Source: Armatimonadota bacterium
GTDB lineage: Bacteria > Armatimonadota > Fimbriimonadia > Fimbriimonadales > Fimbriimonadaceae
Reading direction: 5' to 3'
NCBI GenBank assembly: GCA_022563855.1
Contig: JADFMN010000001.1
Location: 372,001-436,000, forward strand
Length of the DNA stretch: 64,000 nt
Below, one piece after another: positions 3,735 to 60,700 of the stretch; the first letter of the stretch is position 1; the number at the start of each line of letters is the position of its first letter. The translations under genes and the position numbers were made by a program. Below the pieces are notes generated by a model, which was not told where the DNA came from, searched no databases, and saw nothing but the letters and a program-made list of their open reading frames with translations.

Positions 3735-4319
3735 TTACTCGCCACCTTGCTCGTCCATCCGCTGAATCGCCTCATTAAGCTCATCAGGCGTGTTCGCGCT
3801 TACGAATGCAGATGGTGCGAGACCTAGTTTCTCTAGCGCTGGCTCATCGACGACTAGCGCGTTCAACTCAGCGATGATGCGCTTCATCGACGGAGCGCTT
3901 ACGCGGGCACTCTCTTGCCGAAATCGAGCAAACACACTCGCGGAATACAACGCGCACAAGTACTGCTCTCGCCCGTTGATCGTTGGAACGACTGCGTCGC
4001 GCCCGACGATGAGCGGGAGGAACGCAGGAACGACGTCCGCGTTGAAACTGGGGATGTCGCACGAACAGACGAACACTGTTCCGTAAGATGGCATGAATTG
4101 GGACAGCGCGCTCGCAGGGCCTTGAAACTCCTCGCGGTCCGGCAAGAACGGCCGACCTCCTATCGGAGTTCTGCCGAGAACCGTGACCGGAACTCCAATC
4201 CGTTCGAACTCGGCGAGAATCCGCTCCGACATCGTGGCCTCGCCGACGACTATGCTCGCCTTGTCGGCGCCCATGCGCCTGCTGGCGCCTCCCGTGAGCA
4301 GGACCGCTTCAACATCCAT
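3735..4319 (-). CDS. mobA: Molybdenum cofactor guanylyltransferase MobA
   Basis: MobA transfers GMP from GTP to Mo-molybdopterin, giving the MGD form used by DMSO-reductase-family enzymes. The N-terminal nucleotide-binding signature LTGGASRRMGADK (residues 8-20) is diagnostic, followed by the GP...AL and CDIPSF blocks of the Rossmann-like fold. The 194 aa length matches the family. It is transcribed away from the moaA operon. A MobA in the cluster fits the need of the molybdoenzyme encoded at 54.6 kb. Confidence 0.93.
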   Translation of the reverse strand: MDVEAVLLTGGASRRMGADKASIVVGEATMSERILAEFERIGVPVTVLGRTPIGGRPFLPDREEFQGPASALSQFMPSYGTVFVCSCDIPSFNADVVPAFLPLIVGRDAVVPTINGREQYLCALYSASVFARFRQESARVSAPSMKRIIAELNALVVDEPALEKLGLAPSAFVSANTPDELNEAIQRMDEQGGE

Positions 4320-4490
4320 ACTGTATTAACTGACGCGGGATTCTGCGCCTGTATGACGAGAATCATACTCTTGGGTCACAAACGAGTTCAGAATTGAGTA
4401 GACGATTATGGGCTGGATGCCTTCACACTGCGTCGAGTCCGTGCAGCATAACCGCGAAGTTGCGGAAAGCTGGGCGACCCTGCGATTCCA

Positions 4491-4680
4491 GGTTGAAAGC
4501 TGATCTTGTCAGGCCCCATGGAATGTTTACAAAGAAGTAAGTGATAAAATGGATGCAGTGCCAAAAACCTCCGCAACACCGACGAGCAGATCGGCTCTTA
4601 CGTCCGGCACGCTTTCCCACTCCTTGAACGGCGAAGATTCGGAAGGGCTGGCAACGGTGTCGCGCGCTGTGGACGTTGGC
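4491..4680 (+). repeat. Copy of the crp/fnr upstream region and first ~42 codons
   Basis: From GGTTGAAA at 4491 the DNA follows the complement of 50239 down to about 50054, i.e. the CMD-crp intergenic region and the start of the Crp/Fnr gene. A 14-base identical run, TGTTTACAAAGAAG, sits before the start codon in both places and GTGATAAAATGGA covers both start codons. The encoded residues also match (M-D/E-AVP, TL..SL.GED...LATVS). Similarity fades after about codon 42. Confidence 0.85.
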
Positions 4681-5676
4681 ACGGAGACTGGGTCTGCCCC
4701 GCTGATGGATCGCCACGGTCGGCGGCACACTTACCTCCGCGTCTCGATAACGGATCGGTGCAACCTTCGCTGCCGGTACTGCATGCCTGCCGAGGGCATC
4801 GAGTGGACGCCCCGCGACCAGCTGCTCAGCTTCGAAGAGATCCAGCGCGTTGTCGCCGCCCTCGCCGAGGTCGGAGTGAACAAGGTTCGCATCACCGGCG
4901 GAGAACCAACTGTGCGGCGCGGCGTCGAAACACTGATCGAGTCTGTGGCCGGCACGCCTGGCATTACCGAAGTCTGCATGACCACAAACGGCACGACGCT
5001 GGGAAAGATGGCCGGCAGGTACCGAAGTGCTGGCCTGGACGTGCTCAACATCAGCCTCGACTCGCTCCGAGCGGACCGGTTTGAAGAGATAACGAGAACG
5101 AAAAAGTTTGATCAAGTCCTGCGCGGAATCGACGCCGCGCTCGAAGCGGGGTTCGCGCCGATAAAACTGAACGTCGTTGCTATGCGCGGAGTGAACGAAG
5201 ACGAGGTCTGCGACTTCGTAGAGTTCGTTCGCGACCGGCCGATCAACGTGCGATTCATCGAGTTCATGCCGTTCGAGGGCAACAGCTGGAGCCGCGCAAA
5301 GTTCCTCCCTTATCAAGAGATGATCTCAGACCTTGAGCGACGGTATAAGCTCACGCCGCTGCCGGAGCGACCAAATCAAGTAGCGAGAGATTTCTCCATC
5401 GAGGGATGCGAGGGGACCATCAGCTTCATCACCTCGATGTCGGAGAACTTCTGCGCGGGGTGCAACAGGATTCGCCTGACAGCGCAGGGCGACATCAAGG
5501 CGTGCCTGTTCATGACACCCGGAGCGCGCTTGCGCGAGCGATTGCGATCCGGAGCAGACAGCGAAGAAATCGTGGAAGTAGTACGTGGCGCAATCCTTCA
5601 GAAGTGGCCCGGCCACCCAGGGGCGGAAAACCTCCTATCCCTCAAAAACGCCAGTATGATACAGATCGGAGGCTGA
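4549..5676 (+). CDS. moaA: GTP 3',8-cyclase MoaA with a Crp/Fnr-derived N-terminal extension
   Basis: MoaA is the radical SAM enzyme that starts molybdopterin synthesis from GTP. The SAM cluster is CNLRCRYC (Cys71, Cys75, Cys78); the C-terminal cluster motif is FCAGCNRIRLTAQGDIKAC and the protein ends in the conserved Gly-Gly. Residues 1-42 are not part of MoaA: they match the start of the Crp/Fnr protein encoded at 49470-50180. A normal MoaA start exists at ATG 4705 (residue 53, MDRHGRRHTYLRVS), but its ribosome site is weak, so either start is possible. It heads the operon moaA-moaCB-moeA-moaD-moaE-tauE. Confidence 0.93.
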   Translation: MDAVPKTSATPTSRSALTSGTLSHSLNGEDSEGLATVSRAVDVGTETGSAPLMDRHGRRHTYLRVSITDRCNLRCRYCMPAEGIEWTPRDQLLSFEEIQRVVAALAEVGVNKVRITGGEPTVRRGVETLIESVAGTPGITEVCMTTNGTTLGKMAGRYRSAGLDVLNISLDSLRADRFEEITRTKKFDQVLRGIDAALEAGFAPIKLNVVAMRGVNEDEVCDFVEFVRDRPINVRFIEFMPFEGNSWSRAKFLPYQEMISDLERRYKLTPLPERPNQVARDFSIEGCEGTISFITSMSENFCAGCNRIRLTAQGDIKACLFMTPGARLRERLRSGADSEEIVEVVRGAILQKWPGHPGAENLLSLKNASMIQIGG

Positions 5677-49469: not shown

Positions 49470-50180
49470 CTACCTTAAGTACTCCTCGAGCACACGCACA
49501 TCCAGAATTGTAACGAACCGGTGATCGCTTTCGATGATCCCGTTCTTCTGCCACCGGCTCATCACACGGATCGTCGACTCAACGGTGGTTCCCGCCATCT
49601 CGCCGATGTCCTGCCTCGTCAGGGGCACCTGAATCGTCACACCTTTCTCAGACTCCTTGCCGTACGACTCGCTGAGCAGCATGAGAATGAGCGCGATGCG
49701 CTCGTCGACCTTGCCCGTAGACATCTTGGCCATCATGTCCATCGTCTGCCGCAGCCTGTTGGTCGTGCGGCGCAAAAGCTGGTTCTTGAACTCTATGCGG
49801 CCGTCAAAAATTGGCATGAAGTCGGCCTTCGGGATCTTGAGGTACCACATGTTGCAGACCGCCCTCGACTCCAGCGGACATCCGGTTCCCTCGACCGTGC
49901 CGAGAAGGCCAAATATCTGGCCCGGCCCCATGATCTCGGACGTCACCTCGTGGCCGTTCGCCAGGCTCTGCACCATCTTGACGAAACCCACGCCGACCAG
50001 CCCGTAAAAGTCGACCTCGTTCCCGCGCATCCAGATCGTTTCCCCACGCTCGGCGTACGCCATGTGCGACACCGTCGCCAGCTCGTCCAAGTCTTCGCCC
50101 GTCAAGGAATTGAAGAGCGTGCTGGACCTGAGGGCCGCGATGTTCGTCGGCCTTTCGGGAGCTTGTGGCACTGCTTCCAT
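49470..50180 (-). CDS. Crp/Fnr-family transcriptional regulator
   Basis: ATG 50180 (MEAVPQAPERP) gives 236 aa. An N-terminal cyclic-nucleotide-binding-type beta barrel (GETIWMRGNEVDFYGLVGVGFVKM, GPGQIFGLLGTVEG) and long dimer helix lead to a winged helix with recognition segment GTTVESTIRVMSRWQ, the FNR-like E..xxR arrangement. No N-terminal cysteine cluster is seen, so it is not an oxygen-sensing FNR. It follows the CMD gene by 53 bases. Candidate sites ATGA-N6-TCAT occur at 50587, 54472 and 54537. Its 5' region is duplicated at moaA. Confidence 0.9.
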   Translation of the reverse strand: MEAVPQAPERPTNIAALRSSTLFNSLTGEDLDELATVSHMAYAERGETIWMRGNEVDFYGLVGVGFVKMVQSLANGHEVTSEIMGPGQIFGLLGTVEGTGCPLESRAVCNMWYLKIPKADFMPIFDGRIEFKNQLLRRTTNRLRQTMDMMAKMSTGKVDERIALILMLLSESYGKESEKGVTIQVPLTRQDIGEMAGTTVESTIRVMSRWQKNGIIESDHRFVTILDVRVLEEYLR

Positions 50181-50233
50181 TTTATCACGTGCTTCTTTGT
50201 AAACATTTCCTGCGGCGCATGCTAGGTCGTTTT

Positions 50234-50545
50234 TCAACCCGCCATCGCTTCCTCGATCCAACGCAGGCCAGCCATCATCGTCGGGAATCCGACGGTCGTA
50301 ACGGCGAGCATCACGGCGTGGCGGACCTCTTGCTCGGTTGCTCCAGCTTCGATGGCCTTGCGGCAGTGGCTTCGTACCGCGCTCTCAAGGCACGCGCCTA
50401 GCGAGATGCCGATTTTGACCAGCTCCGCGTGCTTCCTTGTCAGCGGCCCTGAGTCGAGCGTCGCCTCGCCCAGCTTCTGGTAGGCATCGCCAATTTCGGG
50501 GTTCTTTTGCATGAACTCTACGTAATGTGAGGGTATCCGGGACAT
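50234..50545 (-). CDS. Carboxymuconolactone decarboxylase (AhpD-like) family protein
   Basis: A 103 aa (from ATG 50545; ATG 50560 adds five residues) all-helical protein of the CMD family: LTRKHAELVKIGISLGACLESAVRSHCRKAIEAGATEQEVRHAVMLAVTTVGFP. The AhpD C-x-x-C-x-x-x-H site is replaced by ACLESAVRSHC, so peroxidase activity is uncertain. It shares an operon with crp and a divergent promoter region with the decarboxylase gene. Confidence 0.85.
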   Translation of the reverse strand: MSRIPSHYVEFMQKNPEIGDAYQKLGEATLDSGPLTRKHAELVKIGISLGACLESAVRSHCRKAIEAGATEQEVRHAVMLAVTTVGFPTMMAGLRWIEEAMAG

Positions 50546-50586
50546 GTTCGTATCCTTCATTCTCGATTCATTTCTGACCCAGGACT

Positions 50587-50600
50587 ATGATTCCCGTCAT
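50587..50600. promoter_or_regulatory. Candidate Crp/Fnr site between CMD-crp and the decarboxylase gene
   Basis: ATGATTCCCGTCAT has the TGA-N6-TCA spacing of Crp/Fnr operators. Its centre lies 60 bases before the decarboxylase start and about 40 before the CMD start, so it could serve either direction. Confidence 0.55.
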
Positions 50601-50653
50601 AGAAACGAATTTTCCTGTGTCGGAGAATACAGTATGGATGTCGAAGCAGAACG

Positions 50654-52910: not shown

Positions 52911-54437
52911 TCAGTTCGTTGCTCCGTTACCGTTCGGCTCGGTCGGGGTGCGAGACGGGTCGTCCATCGGCCCTGTCGGCCTGGCGTCCCTGCTGATCTT
53001 CAGGATCACCGTGTGCATCCAGACGAAGGCGACGATCGAGATGAGCGCGAGGAACAGCCAGCAGGTCGTCCACACGCCCGTGCCTTTCAACATGTAGCCG
53101 AATATGATAGGGCAAACAAAGCCGCCGAGGCCGCCGAGTACGCCGACCAGACCGCCGACGACGCCGACGTCGCGTGGGAAGTAGTCGGGGATGTGCCGGT
53201 AGACAGCGGCACTTCCAACGCCCATCGCTATGCCTGCGAAGAGCAGCAACACAGTGAAGATCCAGACGTTCGCCTGGAAATACACATGGGTCAAACCCTT
53301 GGCGATCAGCTGTTTCTTCGTGACCTGGTCGCCTACCGAGACCGCAGGCTCTTGCCAGGACTCGAAGGTCGGGAATACGAGCGCGCCCTCCTTCTCAACG
53401 CCCGTCTCTTCAGCCGGTTTCGGCTCTAGCTCGTACGTCTTGTCGCCGATCGTGACGCTCGTATCCGTCACTGCCGTGACCGTGCCCGGTTGAGCGGCCA
53501 AGATTCCCTCGCCGGGGGAGCTGATGTCCATGCGCGGCGCGACGATCAGCAGGAAGAACACGACGCAGGCGCTGAGCACCCAGTACATCGTCGCGCGTGC
53601 GCCGAACCTGTCTGCGCACCAGCCGCCGAGAGCCCTGATCGCGCCCGATGGCAAGATGAAGATCGACGCCATCATGCCGGCCGTCGCGAGGCTCATTGTA
53701 TAGACGTTGAGGTAGTAAGGCACCAGCCACTGGGAGAGTGCGACGAAGCCGCCGAACACCAGGAAGTAGTAGTAGCCGAACCGCCAAACGCGGATGTCCT
53801 TCAGCGGTTCCAGCCGCTGTTTGAGCGTCTTGCCTGCTGCGCCTTCCGGCTTCTTGTTCGTCGTAAACAGCGCGAATAAAACTGTCATGACGATCAGCGC
53901 CAGGCCGTAGATCATCGGAAGGTACTTCCAGTTCTCCGGGTTGGCACCGTTGTCGGTAAGGTTTCGTAGCAAAAGCGGCGCGCCGAACGCTGTAATCGCA
54001 GCGCCGGCGTTACCAACGCCAAAGATTCCGAGAACCGTTCCTTGCCTCTCTTTCGGGAACCACACGGACGTGTAGGCGATGCCGACAGCGAACGACGTGC
54101 CCGCCAGGCCGAACGCCAATCCTGCCACGAACAACCCGGCGAACGACTGCATGAAACTGAGCAGGAAGCACGCTGCGGCGGTGATCAGCATGACGCCGAT
54201 GTAAACCGGCTTGCCGCCGTACTTGTCCGCCATGATGCCCACAGGAAGCCGGAGAATCGCACCCGTGAGAACGGGGATACCGATCAGCCAGCCGATCTGT
54301 GCTTTGTCGAGCGTGAGCAAGCCGTTGTCGACCATGAAGGTCACGAGCACGCCGTTCATCATCCACACGGCGAAGCACACGGTGAACGCCAGCGTGTTCA
54401 TGAACAGAATTCGGTTTGCTGGACTTCTTGTGCTCAC
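52911..54437 (-). CDS. narK: NarK-type nitrate/nitrite transporter with an inserted soluble domain
   Basis: A 12-helix MFS carrier with NarK hallmarks: LAFTVCFAVWMMNGVL, GIPVLTGAILRLPVGIMADKYGG, GLAGTSFAVGIAYTSVWFP and GNAGAAITAFGAPLL. I place the start at GTG 54437 because upstream in-frame ATGs (54485, 54518) overlap a likely operator. Between helices near the middle, residues about 302-384 form an insert not found in typical NarK, ending in EPAVSVGDQVTKKQLIAKG, which resembles a lipoyl/biotinyl-like hammerhead. It diverges from the molybdoenzyme operon. Confidence 0.88.
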   Translation of the reverse strand: MSTRSPANRILFMNTLAFTVCFAVWMMNGVLVTFMVDNGLLTLDKAQIGWLIGIPVLTGAILRLPVGIMADKYGGKPVYIGVMLITAAACFLLSFMQSFAGLFVAGLAFGLAGTSFAVGIAYTSVWFPKERQGTVLGIFGVGNAGAAITAFGAPLLLRNLTDNGANPENWKYLPMIYGLALIVMTVLFALFTTNKKPEGAAGKTLKQRLEPLKDIRVWRFGYYYFLVFGGFVALSQWLVPYYLNVYTMSLATAGMMASIFILPSGAIRALGGWCADRFGARATMYWVLSACVVFFLLIVAPRMDISSPGEGILAAQPGTVTAVTDTSVTIGDKTYELEPKPAEETGVEKEGALVFPTFESWQEPAVSVGDQVTKKQLIAKGLTHVYFQANVWIFTVLLLFAGIAMGVGSAAVYRHIPDYFPRDVGVVGGLVGVLGGLGGFVCPIIFGYMLKGTGVWTTCWLFLALISIVAFVWMHTVILKISRDARPTGPMDDPSRTPTEPNGNGATN

Positions 54438-54471
54438 GGCTAGATTCTTGACGCGCCGCAAGAGTGCATCT

Positions 54472-54485
54472 ATGACGCCCGTCAT
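54472..54485. promoter_or_regulatory. Candidate Crp/Fnr site upstream of narK
   Basis: ATGACGCCCGTCAT is a perfect inverted repeat around CC with TGA-N6-TCA spacing. Its centre is 41 bases before GTG 54437, a class II activator distance if transcription begins near that codon. Confidence 0.65.
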
Positions 54486-54536
54486 AGCCCAGGACCATGC
54501 CGCATTTTCGAGCATCATGGACTCTTTGTTCCAGAT

Positions 54537-54595: not shown

Positions 54596-57040
54596 ATGGC
54601 AACACGTCACCCCGTTCCCGGACGAGCGAAGACTGAGGCGCCCAAGGAGGGCAACGTTCGCGTCGTTCGAACGACCGACAGTCCTAACTGCACTGGCGCT
54701 TGCGGATGGCTTGCGACGGTGGTCGACGACGTGATCGTCGACCTCAAGCCAGCGGCCGACTATCCGGATGAGGAGTACAACCCGCGCGGCTGCCTGCGCG
54801 GGATGTCGATGACGCATCTCATCTACGGGCCGGACAGGATCAAGACGCCTTTGATCAGAACAGGCGAGAGGGGAGAGGGCAAGTTCCGGGAGGCCACATG
54901 GGACGAAGCGCTCGATTTGATCGCGGACAAGATGAAGAAGGCGATGAAAGACCACGGGCCGGAGAGCGTCATGCTCTTCAACCAGGTCGTGGGGACCGGC
55001 TACGTGCAAAAAGGCGCGCAAGTCCGAATGGCTTCGCTGCTCGGCATGTCGTTCGGCACCGCTTACGATTTCAACGGCGACATTTCGATGGGGTACACGC
55101 AGACGCTCGGTATCGACAGCATTGAGTGCGAGTCGAAGAGCTGGGGTTACGCAAAGACCGCGATCCTGTGGTCGAGCAACATCTTCCAAACGCGCATACC
55201 CGACGCCCAGTTCTTGACCCGCGTCGCAAAGCAGCGCAACAACTGCAAGATCATCTCGATCGATCCACGCGCCAGTCAGACGGCGAAGGGCGCAGACCAG
55301 TGGCTACCGATTACGCCCGGCACAGACGGCCTCCTGGCGCTCTCAATGTGCCAAGTCGTGATGGAGAGGGAGCTGATCGACTGGTCATTTTTGCGCACGT
55401 ACACCGACATGGCGACGCTCGTCAGGTCGGACAACGGGATGCGCGTAACAGCCAAGGACGTCGGCATGGGCGAAGAGAGCGAGTTCGTCGTCTGGGACGA
55501 CACCCGCAACGGTCTGTTCACCCTGCCGATGGACACGCTCAGGCTTCCCGAGGGGATCGAACCGTCGTTCCGCGGAGTTCGCAAGCTCCAGATCGACGGC
55601 CAGGAAGTCGAGGTCACCCCAGTGTTCCAGCTAGTCGAAGACGTTGTGATGCGAGACGAGTACCGTCCGGAGAACGTCGCCAAGATCACGGACATCCCGG
55701 CAGAAACGATCAGGCAGGTCGCGACCGACTACGCGACCAACAGGCCGTCCACGATCATCGTCGGAATGGGCGTGAACCACAGGCTGCACGGCGATCTGAC
55801 GATCCGGTCGATCCTGCTGCTGAGCGCGCTCGTCGGCGCGCACGGCAAGCCGGGCGAATCCGTTTCGATCTACTCCGGCCAGCACCACTTCCGGCTCGAC
55901 GTCTCGCCGTGGTGGTTCCCCGACGGGAAGCGCCCGAACGCGGTTCCTGTGCACTACTTCATCTTGGGCCGTCCGACCAACTCGATGAACAAGAAGATCA
56001 AGTTCCCCAAGGACGGCTTCAAGGGATTCATTTGCTCGCACGCCAACCCGATGGTCACGGAGTTCAGCAACTTGATGAAAGCGGCGATGGACAAGCTCGA
56101 CATCTTCGTCACCATCGACTTTCAAATGACGCCGACCTGCGAGTACTCGGACGTCGTGCTTCCTGCGCCGACGTTTTGGGAGAAGTACGAACTCGTCGCC
56201 ACTGGCTGCCATCCGTTCTTGCAGATCCAGCAAGAGGTCGTGCCGCCGCAGTACGACAGCAAGACGGAGTACTGGATCGTCAAGGAGATGGTGCGACGGA
56301 TCGATCCCGACTTGCTCAAATACTTTGAAGTTGACGAGTTCGGTGCGATGGAGATGATGCTCGACGCCCCGGACTGTCCGGAAGTGGCGGGCATCACGAT
56401 CGAGCAGCTCAAGGCAGGCCCGGTTCGGCTGAAGGTACACGACCCTGAGTGCGGACTTGACGAACAGATTCAAGACTTCAAGCTGTTCCCGCCACGCGCC
56501 TATCCGTTCCCCGAGGGCGCGCAGCGGGAGTTCCTCAAGACCGGCCGCATGGAGTTCTACAAGGAAGAAGAGACGTACCAGAAGCTCGGTGAGACGCTCC
56601 CCGTTTTCAAGCCAGCGTTCTCGCACATGACGGACGACGAGCAGGCGCTTCCGTTCTGCATCGTCACCCCGCACTCCAAGTGGCGCGTGCACTCGACTCA
56701 CTGCAACAACAACGTGCTGAGGAATCTGAACCGCAAGCCGGTCGTCGAGATCCATCCAGCCGATGCACTGACGAGAGGAATCGAGGACGACGACGAGGTC
56801 GAGGTGTTCAACGACAACGGTTCCTACAAGTTGTGGGCGCTGCTGACAGAATCGATCAAGCCCGGCGTCCTGTGCGTCGATCACGGCTGGTGGGATCGGT
56901 TCCTGATTGATGGGAAGTACCACTCCGTGCACTCGGAGCAGAAGATCAAGCCGACCCATGAGACGTACTATCTGCCAGCCGTCTACGCGCCGGGTCAACA
57001 CTGGAAAGATACGAGAGTGAACATCAGGAGATCGAAGTAG
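54596..57040 (+). CDS. Nitrate-reductase-like molybdopterin oxidoreductase (DMSO reductase family, type II)
   Basis: An 814 aa bis-MGD enzyme. The N-terminal iron-sulfur motif is D-SPN-C-TGA-C (Asp28, Cys32, Cys36) plus Cys66 in NPRGCLRG; NarG has His at the Asp28 position. AYDFNGDIS places Asp162 where type II enzymes (NarG, NxrA, PcrA, DdhA) use an Asp Mo ligand. No twin-arginine signal is present, implying a cytoplasmic-facing subunit. At 814 aa it is much shorter than NarG (~1,230). Nitrate is the likely substrate because narK lies next door, but other oxyanions cannot be excluded. No NarJ chaperone is seen. Confidence 0.87.
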   Translation: MATRHPVPGRAKTEAPKEGNVRVVRTTDSPNCTGACGWLATVVDDVIVDLKPAADYPDEEYNPRGCLRGMSMTHLIYGPDRIKTPLIRTGERGEGKFREATWDEALDLIADKMKKAMKDHGPESVMLFNQVVGTGYVQKGAQVRMASLLGMSFGTAYDFNGDISMGYTQTLGIDSIECESKSWGYAKTAILWSSNIFQTRIPDAQFLTRVAKQRNNCKIISIDPRASQTAKGADQWLPITPGTDGLLALSMCQVVMERELIDWSFLRTYTDMATLVRSDNGMRVTAKDVGMGEESEFVVWDDTRNGLFTLPMDTLRLPEGIEPSFRGVRKLQIDGQEVEVTPVFQLVEDVVMRDEYRPENVAKITDIPAETIRQVATDYATNRPSTIIVGMGVNHRLHGDLTIRSILLLSALVGAHGKPGESVSIYSGQHHFRLDVSPWWFPDGKRPNAVPVHYFILGRPTNSMNKKIKFPKDGFKGFICSHANPMVTEFSNLMKAAMDKLDIFVTIDFQMTPTCEYSDVVLPAPTFWEKYELVATGCHPFLQIQQEVVPPQYDSKTEYWIVKEMVRRIDPDLLKYFEVDEFGAMEMMLDAPDCPEVAGITIEQLKAGPVRLKVHDPECGLDEQIQDFKLFPPRAYPFPEGAQREFLKTGRMEFYKEEETYQKLGETLPVFKPAFSHMTDDEQALPFCIVTPHSKWRVHSTHCNNNVLRNLNRKPVVEIHPADALTRGIEDDDEVEVFNDNGSYKLWALLTESIKPGVLCVDHGWWDRFLIDGKYHSVHSEQKIKPTHETYYLPAVYAPGQHWKDTRVNIRRSK

Positions 57041-58948
57041 ATGCCGCGAATGGCGATGCTGATCGATCTCACTCGCTGCATCGGCTGCGACGCCTGCACG
57101 ATCGCCTGCAAACAGGAGAACGGCACTCCCGTCAATACGTTTTTCGCGCGCGTGCTGAACGTCGAGGCCGGTACATACCCGAACGTCAAGCGCGTTTACA
57201 TCCCGGTGCTCTGCAATCACTGCGACGACGCGCCGTGCTTGAAGGCTTGCCCGAACAAAGCGATCTTCAGACGCGACGACGGCATCGTGCTGATCGACCA
57301 GGATCGTTGCAAGGGGACGGGCGCGTGCGTCTCCGCCTGCCCGTACGGAAACGTATATCTTACCAAGACCGATGAGTGGTACTTGAACGAGGACGAGCCG
57401 TACGAGCGCGACTTTGTCAAACCAAGGCTGAAGGAGAACGTCGCGCGCAAGTGCACTTACTGCGCGCACCGCGTCGATCAGGGCTTGGATCCGGCTTGCG
57501 TCGTTGCGTGCCCCACGACTGCGCGGATCTTTGGAGATTTGGACGACCCGGACAGCGCGGTCTCGAAGTACATCGTAGAGCAGAAGGAGCTGACCGGACG
57601 AGATACGTTCCATTTGCTGCCGCAGGCGAAGACCAAGCCTGCAGGTCTGTACCTTGGCACCATGTCCGATCAAGAGAGCCACACGCACGGAAATCGGGCG
57701 ACTGCTACCGGCGTCGAACCGGTCACCAGCAAAGCTCAGCGCTCTATCGAAACGCGTGAACTGGAAGCAGCGCCAGCACAAGCGACAGGAAAGAAGCTGC
57801 GGTTGCTGCCGATCATCGGCAGCCTGATCCTGCTGGCTGCCGCGGCCCTCGCATCTGGCCAGGAAGACGTAGAGGTCATGGAGCGCATCGCGCCGAGCGA
57901 CGTGTATTCGACCTCCACCTGCATGGGGTGCCACGGCATCACCGGCAACGGCGGCATAGGCCCGCCAATAGCAGAGACCAAGCTCACAGAAATGGAGTTC
58001 CTCGCGATCATTCGCGACGGCAAGGGGATGATGCCAGCGACCCCTGCCGAAGCTCTCTCCGACGAAGACGCTAGGAGCATCTACTCAGAGATGCGGGCGA
58101 AAGAGGTGGACGAAGATCAGATCCCGATCGCCTACAAGGTCGGAAGGGTTCTATCGACCAAGAGCGTCATGCACATCTTCCTCTTCGCGGGGCTGTTTTC
58201 GATCTTCTTCGGTCTCAAGGTCCTGTTCTACTGGATCAAGATCTCCGGTGCCTGGGGGCTGTTGCCTCATCTCAAGAAATTCGGCTTTGGCAAAGCGATC
58301 GGAGTGTTCTCCTGGTCGCTCATCGTCGACGGGTTCCTCGTCGCGTCCCTGTGGCGGAAGAACAAGCAGCGTTGGTTCTTGCACGGGCTGATGCTTTACG
58401 GAATGTTCGGCCTCCTGCTCGCGGACATGCTGATGCAGATCTACAACCCTTCGCGGGGCGATTTGGAATTGACGCACCCGATCAAGCTGCTCGCGATAGT
58501 TGCCGGCGCCGCCGTGATCTATGGGGTCGGCTACGTCATGGTGCGATACAAGACCGACGAGTACATGGACAACGGCCTGACGCTCGGACGCGACTTCCTG
58601 TTCGTCAACTTGCTGTTCCATACCGTTTTAAGCGGATTCATGACGTTGACGCTGAACAAGGCCGGCGTCAACGACTGGCTGATGACGATTTACATTTATC
58701 ACTTGACGTCGGTCGCGCTGCTCATCATGACCGCGCCGTTCACCCGCTTCGCGCACGCGTTCGTCGTTCCAGTCCTGGTCGGCATCACGCGCGTCGGGGA
58801 AGAGCTGGTGGCAAGCGGAGTCAACATAGCGTTCGAACGCGAACCGTCTCCGGGCAGGCACCACAAGAGCGAACAGATCGCCGCGCAGGTGATGGCAGAA
58901 ATAGATCCAGGGTTTGAGGGCCCGATCAGGCTGCGCTACTACCCGTAG
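57041..58948 (+). CDS. Fused four-cluster ferredoxin, cytochrome c and b-type membrane subunit
   Basis: Residues 1 to about 210 are a NarH/DmsB-like ferredoxin: CIGCDACTIAC, CNHCDDAPCLKAC, CKGTGACVSAC and CTYCAHR...CVVAC. The third group has Thr where a fourth Cys is expected, suggesting a 3Fe-4S centre as in NarH. Residues about 254-274 are a membrane helix, then CMGCH (294-298) is a c-heme site outside the membrane. From about residue 375 five or six helices with paired His resemble NarI-type cytochrome b. The ATG directly follows the previous stop. It would connect the molybdenum subunit to quinones and to the Rieske/cytochrome b partners. Confidence 0.88.
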   Translation: MPRMAMLIDLTRCIGCDACTIACKQENGTPVNTFFARVLNVEAGTYPNVKRVYIPVLCNHCDDAPCLKACPNKAIFRRDDGIVLIDQDRCKGTGACVSACPYGNVYLTKTDEWYLNEDEPYERDFVKPRLKENVARKCTYCAHRVDQGLDPACVVACPTTARIFGDLDDPDSAVSKYIVEQKELTGRDTFHLLPQAKTKPAGLYLGTMSDQESHTHGNRATATGVEPVTSKAQRSIETRELEAAPAQATGKKLRLLPIIGSLILLAAAALASGQEDVEVMERIAPSDVYSTSTCMGCHGITGNGGIGPPIAETKLTEMEFLAIIRDGKGMMPATPAEALSDEDARSIYSEMRAKEVDEDQIPIAYKVGRVLSTKSVMHIFLFAGLFSIFFGLKVLFYWIKISGAWGLLPHLKKFGFGKAIGVFSWSLIVDGFLVASLWRKNKQRWFLHGLMLYGMFGLLLADMLMQIYNPSRGDLELTHPIKLLAIVAGAAVIYGVGYVMVRYKTDEYMDNGLTLGRDFLFVNLLFHTVLSGFMTLTLNKAGVNDWLMTIYIYHLTSVALLIMTAPFTRFAHAFVVPVLVGITRVGEELVASGVNIAFEREPSPGRHHKSEQIAAQVMAEIDPGFEGPIRLRYYP

Positions 58949-58965: not shown

Positions 58966-59481
58966 ATGTGTGCAAGCAGAAACAACCGCGCAGAGTGCAA
59001 CTGCAAAGACGAGCCGATGAGCAAGGAGCGACGCAAGTTTCTCGGTGGTTTGATCGGACTGTTCAACGCAGTGGTCGGGATCGCCGTCCTCGGTCCCGTG
59101 ATCGGATTCATCGGTGCGCCGTTGGCAAAGAAGCTCAAAGGCGAGTGGGTGCCTGTGCTGGACGACGCGGACCTCGCAGTCGGCGAAACACGGGAGGCCA
59201 ATTACTCGATGGTAATCAAGGATGGTTACCGGACGATCAACCGCAGCTACAACGTATTCCTGCACAGACACGACGATCGAATAGCCGCGTTCAACCCGTC
59301 CTGCACGCACCTTGGCTGCCGGATCGAGTTCCAAGACGACAAGGGGCGGTATTTCTGTCCCTGCCACGGCGGTGTATTCGACGAAAGAGGTGAGGTCGTC
59401 GCAGGCCCGCCACCGAGAGCGCTGGACCAGTACGAGACGAAAGTAGAGGACGGCAAGGTGTGGATCTACCGAGAGGTGTGA
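58966..59481 (+). CDS. Rieske iron-sulfur protein
   Basis: The 2Fe-2S site is CTHLGC and CPCHGG, with the Pro loop GPPPRALDQY. An N-terminal SKERRKFLGGLIGLFNAVVG resembles a Tat-type signal anchor. ATG 58966 is preceded by GGAAAG; ATG 59017, directly before the twin arginines, is an alternative start. With the following cytochrome b it forms a bc-type quinol-oxidising module. Confidence 0.92.
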   Translation: MCASRNNRAECNCKDEPMSKERRKFLGGLIGLFNAVVGIAVLGPVIGFIGAPLAKKLKGEWVPVLDDADLAVGETREANYSMVIKDGYRTINRSYNVFLHRHDDRIAAFNPSCTHLGCRIEFQDDKGRYFCPCHGGVFDERGEVVAGPPPRALDQYETKVEDGKVWIYREV

Positions 59482-59482
59482 T

Positions 59483-60700
59483 GTGAGCAAACGAGTCCTG
59501 ACACCGGAGCAACCGATCGAGCAAGAGCCCGAGCGAACGCGCGAGGAACAGCTGGTCGCCGATCGCCCGCGCCTGCGGGACTGGCTCGAGCTGCGCCTAG
59601 GCTGGTGGGGCTTCGTTCGCAAGAACCTCGACGAGAAGATGCCCGCTGGCGTTGGCTGGTGGCAGACGCTTGGCAACCTCCTGCTAACGCTGCTCGTGTT
59701 CCAGTTTTCAACCGGCATAGCGCTGGCGATGTACTACTCGCCGAGCCCGGAATCAGCGCACGCAAGCATTCAACACATCAACGATGGTCTTTACTTTTGG
59801 GGCATCAACGTGGGGATCGCAACTCGCAGTCTGCACGTTTGGGGTTCGACCGCCATCATCTGCGTCACCGTGATCCACATCTTGCGCGTGTTCTTCTGGG
59901 GCAGTTACAAAAAGCCGCGCGAACTAACGTGGCTGATAGGCGTGCTGATCTTTTTCGTGATGCTCGCCTTCTCGTTCACCGGATACCTGCTGCCTTGGGA
60001 CCAGACCGCGTACTGGGCGACCGTCGTCGGCACGAACATCGCGGGGACCGTCCCCGTCATCGGCGATGCGCTCTTGGTACTGATTCGCGGTGGCCATGAG
60101 GTCGGATCGCTCACCCTGACCCGGTTCTACGCCATCCATGTGATGCTGCTGCCTGGAGCACTCTTGTTCCTCACCGGCCTGCATCTGATGCTCGTGCGAA
60201 AGCACCACATCGCCGGACCTGTCAAGCCGCAGAAAGGGCCAGGCGTGCCTTTCTTTCCGGTGCAGCTGTTCAAGGACGCGGTCGTTGTGCTGTTCGGCGT
60301 TGGGCTGGTCGTCTATCTCGCGGCCGCATTCCCTCCAGGACTGGAGGCGATGGCCGATCCATCCGGGACGGACTTCGCGCCGCGTCCGGAGTGGTACTAC
60401 CTCGGACTGTTCGAGCTGCTCAAGATCATGCCAGCCGGGTGGGAAGTGCTCGCCACGGTCGTCGTACCGGGCATCGTCAGCCTTGGGATGATCTTTCTCC
60501 CGTGGTTGGACCGCTCGGATTCCAGGCACCCGGCCATGCGGCAGTGGATCATCGTAACCGGCACGTTCATCATTCTGATGATCGGGCTGATGACGCTAAA
60601 AGGGATCCTCGATACACCGGTTCACGCGGAGCCGGAGCAGGTTGAGTCGGCCGTTGACGCTAACGTGACGAATCTTGCAGACGACGTTGATCCACCGTAA
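59483..60700 (+). CDS. Cytochrome b (bc1/b6f type)
   Basis: A 405 aa cytochrome b with N- and C-terminal halves in one chain. Heme His pairs are visible in TRSLHVWGSTAIICVTVIH and YAIHVMLLPGALLFLTGLH; GYLLPWDQTAYWATVV and PEWYY are Q-site motifs. The GTG start follows the Rieske stop by one base. No separate cytochrome c1 follows; the c-heme domain in the fusion protein upstream may take its place, which is inference. Confidence 0.93.
   Translation: MSKRVLTPEQPIEQEPERTREEQLVADRPRLRDWLELRLGWWGFVRKNLDEKMPAGVGWWQTLGNLLLTLLVFQFSTGIALAMYYSPSPESAHASIQHINDGLYFWGINVGIATRSLHVWGSTAIICVTVIHILRVFFWGSYKKPRELTWLIGVLIFFVMLAFSFTGYLLPWDQTAYWATVVGTNIAGTVPVIGDALLVLIRGGHEVGSLTLTRFYAIHVMLLPGALLFLTGLHLMLVRKHHIAGPVKPQKGPGVPFFPVQLFKDAVVVLFGVGLVVYLAAAFPPGLEAMADPSGTDFAPRPEWYYLGLFELLKIMPAGWEVLATVVVPGIVSLGMIFLPWLDRSDSRHPAMRQWIIVTGTFIILMIGLMTLKGILDTPVHAEPEQVESAVDANVTNLADDVDPP

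Follow-up and report, generated by a model that had tools for sequence, protein, structure and literature searches.

In an Armatimonadota genome, a four-cluster ferredoxin (FeS) domain, a heme c domain and a NarI-like cytochrome b domain are encoded by one gene, which lies in a conserved operon between the gene for a molybdenum (Mo) catalytic subunit and those for a Rieske protein and a bc-type cytochrome b. The fusion is genuine; we consider it somewhat probable that it belongs to an oxyanion reductase, most likely for nitrate, which works with its own Rieske/cytochrome b pair, and that the fused chain is cleaved. The combination is unusual and conserved, but the modules are already known. 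No description of such an Armatimonadota respiratory complex was found in the literature searched.

A conserved operon around a fused subunit

Positions refer to the window, the whole stretch of 64,000 nucleotides that was analyzed. The operon, its neighbors and the parts of the fused chain are as follows.

49470..50261, - strand: CRP/FNR-family regulator, ~4 kb upstream of the Mo gene
52911..54518, - strand: NarK-family MFS nitrate/nitrite transporter, divergent (TIGR00886 E 7e-60, below cut-off; PF07690)
54596..57040, + strand: Mo-bisPGD catalytic subunit, type II DMSO-reductase family, 814 aa, without Tat signal
57041..58948, + strand: fused FeS / heme c / NarI-like b subunit, 635 aa
57041..57658, + strand: four-cluster ferredoxin domain of ArrB/PsrB/NarH type, residues 1-206
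57659..57796, + strand: variable linker, residues 207-252, unconserved in the alignment and of low pLDDT
57797..57859, + strand: junction helix, a retained signal-peptide h-region with a predicted signal peptidase (SPase) I site
57902..58084, + strand: class-I cytochrome c domain, residues 288-348, with CMGCH at 294-298 and the axial Met in GMMP
58127..58900, + strand: NarI-like five-helix b domain, residues 363-620, with invariant H448, H554 and H572
58966..59481, + strand: Rieske [2Fe-2S] protein with Tat-type N-terminus (PF00355 E 4.4e-12)
59483..60700, + strand: cytochrome b, b6 and subunit IV joined, 405 aa (PF00033 E 1e-47, PF00032 E 1.7e-9)

The Mo gene and the fused gene, a single open frame without an internal stop, are separated by nothing but the stop codon of the former. 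The Rieske protein likely starts at MSKERRKFLGG, residue 18 of its frame, and its CTHLGC...CPCHG motif is present in all relatives, while the full-length cytochrome b that follows has no heme c of its own. NarK adjoins the operon here and in many relatives, and a CRP/FNR-family regulator is also located near it in several. The conserved operon hence comprises the Mo subunit, the FeS/c/b part, a Rieske protein of the Tat type and cytochrome b; NarK and the regulator often accompany it. An earlier reading of the same DNA, made from the sequence only, had described the fused chain but mentioned neither its Rieske and bc-type cytochrome b partners nor the fact that its b domain is short of one NarI heme His.

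That sequence-only reading had proposed the order ferredoxin, helix, CMGCH heme c and NarI-like b, which is borne out by Pfam, by PDB matches and by a model with the NarI fold. Among PDB entries, the ferredoxin domain matches ArrB (E 2.8e-46), PsrB (3e-41), PcrB (7e-31) and NarH (2e-18), and Fer4_11 covers it in two stretches (E 1.7e-24). Its third cluster motif, C-x-G-T-x-x-C, is one Cys short; at the Thr position ArrB has Cys and NarH carries Trp. Given this Thr for Cys, one of the four clusters is probably a [3Fe-4S] cluster. The CMGCH site falls within a Cytochrome_CBB3 domain (residues 288-348, E 2e-11), and the alignment shows the GMMP motif to be kept in relatives.

The b domain belongs to the NarI type. 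Of 32 family members, 31 are recognized by PF02665 (NarI; best E 1.1e-6), with the present copy at E 0.0029, under the gathering score. When residues ~364-598 of the AlphaFold model are compared with E. coli NarI, 172-181 residues align at Z 10.6-12.1, more than for the unrelated structures in the comparison; mycobacterial EtfD gives Z 12.2. The modeled domain has a NarI fold. A conserved C-terminus, REPxPGRxHK...RYYP, follows it. The invariant His residues (H448, H554, H572) account for only three of the four NarI heme ligands (H56, H66, H187, H205). H554 and H572 are 18 residues apart, the same spacing as H187/H205 in NarI, and the topology suggests that H448 occupies the place of H56. No invariant counterpart of H66 was found in the family alignment; H538, a possible substitute, is present in most members and absent from deep lineages. 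The inner heme b site thus appears well supported by sequence and the outer one uncertain, which makes a two-heme path across the membrane uncertain as well.

As for topology, the FeS domain had been placed inside and the heme c outside, and the present data support this placement. The junction helix (residues 255-274 in the AlphaFold model, 20 residues long) is flanked by positive charge on its N-side and mostly negative charge on its C-side, and five more helices come after it in the model. The FeS domain has no export signal and stands before the first helix, and the Mo subunit has no export signal either, so both are taken as cytoplasmic, with the heme c domain predicted to lie outside. 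The FeS part of the AlphaFold model, with pLDDT mostly <60, was left out of inferences.

Two neighboring genes show peculiarities of their own. The NarK-family transporter (52911-54518, - strand) contains an insert of ~75 aa (residues ~333-407) with weak barrel-sandwich-hybrid likeness (RnfC_N, E 0.03), and NarK matches in other Armatimonadota families skip the equivalent stretch. Positions 4306-4663, at moaA (4549-5676), are a 73-79% copy of ~50065-50650 (- strand), which holds the upstream region and start of the CRP/FNR gene. The first ~40 residues of the moaA product are a CRP N-terminus fused to MoaA; moaA has apparently captured the promoter and start of the regulator gene.

Fused and split genes and the junction between them

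Named relatives suggest that the genome comes from a Fimbriimonadales-like member of the Armatimonadota. In a survey of 291 Armatimonadota genomes, the full b domain was found at at least 48% identity in 36, the present genome counted, and at 39% in G117. Thirty-five relatives were retrieved in full, and the 36th, G035, was examined as locus L014. The FeS and c-b parts share one frame in 13 genomes (the present one and 12 relatives) and are two separate genes in 23 relatives; one further relative lies on a cut contig. Among 22 split pairs that were measured, 18 show a 4-nt overlap between the start of the second gene and the FeS stop. Of 36 relatives, 35 have the Rieske and cytochrome b genes immediately downstream of the b domain, and G117 does not. 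Where the contig extends far enough, the FeS gene is preceded by the Mo gene in all relatives but G025.

The 635-residue frame is real. The same fusion occurs in 11 other genomes at 55-65% identity, including the single-contig assemblies G018 and G159, and these intact fusions reject the possibility that a sequencing error or frameshift joined two genes. The earlier reading had expected such an error to be betrayed by relatives with separate frames; split relatives do exist, but the error itself is excluded.

Further rearrangements occur within the family. The heme c domain is tandemly duplicated in three fused (G018, G159, G031) and two split (G161, G162) relatives (L123, L124, L125, L137, L139). 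In G117, the C-terminal part of the Mo subunit is fused as well, giving one 1138-aa frame with FeS, heme c and b domains (L153:4453-7866), which is followed by a TehA-like transporter without adjoining Rieske/cytochrome b genes. This genome was given little weight, as its assembly is incomplete and its Mo gene broken.

Strong relatives of the b domain were not found in 20 FeS-bearing genomes of other phyla, in 301 genomes of a Chloroflexota-centred sample, or in samples of 217 Acidobacteriota, 216 Planctomycetota and plasmids. Matches outside Armatimonadota are distant NarI/QmoC-like frames with at best 74 bits in a profile search; within the phylum, all copies other than that of G117 reach ~294 bits or more in a protein search.

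The fusion probably dates far back. When G117 is used to root a concatenated tree, a fused root costs 4 changes and a split root 6, and without G117 the costs are 4 and 5. The maximum-likelihood tree calls for at least 4 switches between fused and split forms, and its backbone is weakly supported; one change suffices after branches with support <90 are collapsed, and repeated independent fusion or fission events are therefore not claimed.

In split relatives, the second gene opens with a typical signal peptide which ends in small-x-small, followed mostly by Gln. A site matrix built from 22 split relatives only was applied to every position of the 13 fused chains (~600-700 positions each), and the junction was the top-scoring position in 12 of them. 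In the remaining one, G117, the junction comes fourth, and a site in another part of the chain scores higher. The present chain has ASG/Q (the slash marking the cut) after residue 273, rank 1 of 620 positions, with alternatives within ALASG. Junction sites score below those of split genes and are weak in G018 and G159 (5.9). Yet the small-x-small/Q motif survives where linker and helix have diverged, which we read as a sign of selection and as predicting cleavage by SPase I, probably into an FeS and a c-b subunit. The FeS part would then end in a membrane tail, the signal peptide of old. An internal small-x-small cleavage site between two subunits is also what characterizes SPase I polyproteins of the FbcH type. 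Bradyrhizobium FbcH is a cytochrome b/c1 precursor (Thony-Meyer 1991) and is reportedly processed. The two cases resemble each other in that one gene with an internal signal sequence encodes two membrane redox subunits, and differ in the identity of the subunits and in that cleavage here is predicted only.

The chain might instead stay whole, holding FeS, heme c and b domain together through an uncut signal-anchor helix. The 20-residue helix of the model would suffice as an anchor, and the fused form is the most parsimonious ancestral state, thus stable over long evolution. Nevertheless, we regard an uncut chain as rather unlikely, since the motif is retained just past the helix in nearly all fused lineages despite divergence of the flanks, and since two chains function in the split relatives. 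Two products may also come from an internal translation start, for which the TTG at residue 255, preceded by a purine-rich stretch, is a candidate; however, there is no suitably placed ATG, and a start at this TTG would drop the positively charged n-region. The topology of the earlier proposal is thus supported, and its idea of a membrane crossing by electrons inside a single polypeptide is less secure: the junction keeps an AxA/Q-type SPase site, so that the mature enzyme probably consists of two chains.

The molybdenum subunit and its likely substrate

The Mo subunit contains the Molybdopterin, Molydop_binding and Molybdop_Fe4S4 domains of Pfam, and its sequence places it in the type II DMSO-reductase (Nar) clade. 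Its best NCBIfam model, TIGR03479, scores 469 bits, below the cut-off of 985, and the NarG equivalog TIGR01580 gives 264 bits against a cut-off of 1084. The N-terminus reads MATRxxVPGR or a near variant in all 29 relatives in which it is complete, and none of these has a Tat or Sec signal. At the position of NarG His49, the FS0 ligand, the present subunit and all 29 of these relatives have an invariant Asp. This replacement of the FS0 His of NarG and PcrA makes the family a candidate for an Asp-ligated [4Fe-4S] cluster.

The enzyme would be a membrane-bound, cytoplasm-facing oxyanion reductase, and nitrate is its most likely substrate. Nitrate is favored by the adjacency of NarK, by an excess of NrfA among operon-bearing genomes, by the absence of chlorite dismutase (PF06778) from the genome and by NarGH expression in ARM1. 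A full-length or large NrfA match occurs in 18 of 36 operon-bearing genomes versus 44 of 255 others (Fisher p 4e-5), and within the same family in 13 of 28 versus 6 of 55 (p 6e-4), p-values which are optimistic given that the genomes are related. ARM1, the most abundant heterotroph of an anammox reactor, expressed NarGH (PMC6714388); it is presumably a member of the Armatimonadetes, and its NarGH is not necessarily the present enzyme. Against nitrate stand a closer match to PcrA than to NarG, the absence of a NarJ/TorD chaperone (PF02613) from the genome, which is ~96% complete, and the absence of NrfA from this same genome. Nor was there an above-cut-off match to Cu nitrite reductase in it.

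That another oxyanion, such as perchlorate/chlorate, selenate or arsenate, is reduced in place of nitrate is unlikely in our judgment. Among solved Mo subunits PcrA comes nearest (371 bits, NarG 220), the FeS domain is nearest to ArrB, and the highest-scoring plasmid match of the Mo subunit, among those listed, adjoins a gene of the chlorite-dismutase family. However, the genome itself has no chlorite dismutase, and the operon is adjoined by NarK. The system resembles perchlorate reductase PcrAB in the close match of the Mo subunit, and differs in that it has neither chlorite dismutase nor export signal and includes a membrane b domain.

A putative electron path through a dedicated Rieske/cytochrome b pair

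For the likely nitrate reductase, we envisage that the FeS domain remains with the Mo subunit in the cytoplasm, that the heme c domain is led out to the periplasmic side by what was once the signal peptide of the second gene, and that the chain makes five membrane passes in the b domain. Electrons would most likely leave menaquinol by way of cytochrome b/Rieske and reach heme c, which would act in the role of cytochrome c1, and then through the heme(s) b to the cytoplasmic FeS clusters, Mo and nitrate. By our bookkeeping, a Q cycle combined with inward transfer would move ~4 charges per 2 electrons, compared to 2 for NarGHI.

The heme c of the fused subunit is the only one encoded in the operon, and a Rieske protein, cytochrome b and a heme c subunit, the components expected of a bc1/b6f-type complex, are found together there. 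The idea that this pair forms the only bc-type complex of the genome was rejected, as a second Rieske/cytochrome b pair exists (L163:7835-9872, - strand, G000 contig C12). Its cytochrome b is a paralog (58%) which carries a C-terminal heme c (CMNCH). Since the operon cytochrome b lacks a heme c and the paralog has one, the heme c of the fused subunit is a natural substitute for c1. We tentatively suggest, with doubt outweighing confidence, that a bc-type complex and a cytoplasmic nitrate reductase are permanently wired together, and that the one gene would yield, through cleavage of its product, the FeS subunit and a c-b bridge across the membrane. Electrons from quinol oxidized outside would then return inward, doubling the charge per nitrate relative to NarGHI.

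Two other routes deserve consideration. The Rieske/cytochrome b pair could be a separate complex, with the NarI-like domain oxidizing menaquinol as in NarGHI and the heme c serving as a side exit, similar to Thermus NarC, which has been proposed to hand electrons to periplasmic reductases (PMC7694296). The NarI fold of the b domain and one invariant NarI-like heme site (H448/H572) agree with such a division of labor, which we nonetheless consider improbable: the Rieske and cytochrome b genes trail the subunit in nearly every relative, the operon cytochrome b is without the heme c found in its paralog, and the ligand pair typical of the P-side heme of NarI is not conserved. Still less probable, and in our view very unlikely, is an oxidase of nitrite or another donor, resembling nitrite oxidoreductase (NXR) or arsenite oxidase, in which electrons flow outward from Mo to heme c. 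Although the Nitrobacter NXR route has the same parts of Mo, FeS, b and c (PMC7694296) and the genome encodes a heme-copper oxidase, NarK, the CRP/FNR regulator and the co-occurrence of NrfA point to anaerobic reduction, and the Rieske/cytochrome b pair would need to operate in reverse.

The proposed path from bc-type complex to nitrate reductase has partial precedents. With E. coli NarGHI the system shares a cytoplasmic Mo subunit of the type II DMSO-reductase clade with NarK nearby, a four-cluster FeS subunit whose third motif is one Cys short, and a five-helix b subunit of NarI fold. It differs in the size of the Mo subunit (814 aa here, ~1247 in NarGHI), in the Asp that stands for His49, in the lack of NarJ, in the heme c domain at the N-terminus of the b domain and the fusion of the latter to the FeS subunit, and in having its own Rieske/cytochrome b genes. 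In Thermus NarCGHI, a periplasmic cytochrome c, NarC, is bound to NarI and works with it in nitrate reduction, but NarC, which has two hemes, is a protein of its own, and the operon is not described as containing Rieske/cytochrome b (PMC7694296). In haloarchaea and Methanoperedens, Rieske and cytochrome b genes accompany those of a nitrate reductase, or their products are proposed as its electron donors; there, however, the Mo subunit faces outside (PMC4683180), whereas here it lacks an export signal. Nar1 of Streptomyces coelicolor depends on bcc-aa3 and is proposed to be fed through NarI by the cytochrome c of the bc complex, with electrons passing from QcrC to NarI (PMC7931247). The bcc-aa3 complex is separate and general-purpose, in contrast to the dedicated operon described here, in which the cytochrome c is joined to the NarI-like domain.

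Streptomyces Nar1 and Thermus NarC raise the question of whether electrons from a bc complex can reach a cytoplasmic nitrate reductase via a cytochrome c and a b subunit of the NarI type. In the Armatimonadota family, the genes for such a path sit in one conserved operon, and the cytochrome c is part of the NarI-like subunit, which makes the question directly testable. The family also switches naturally between fused and split forms of a subunit pair while retaining the cleavage motif, and is thus well suited to clean studies of how a single gene can give rise to membrane redox subunits.

Apart from the operon, the genome contains an ActB-like FeS frame (1052 aa) adjoining a heme-copper oxidase gene (G000 contig C4, 300734-309162), which is probably an alternative complex III/oxidase cluster.
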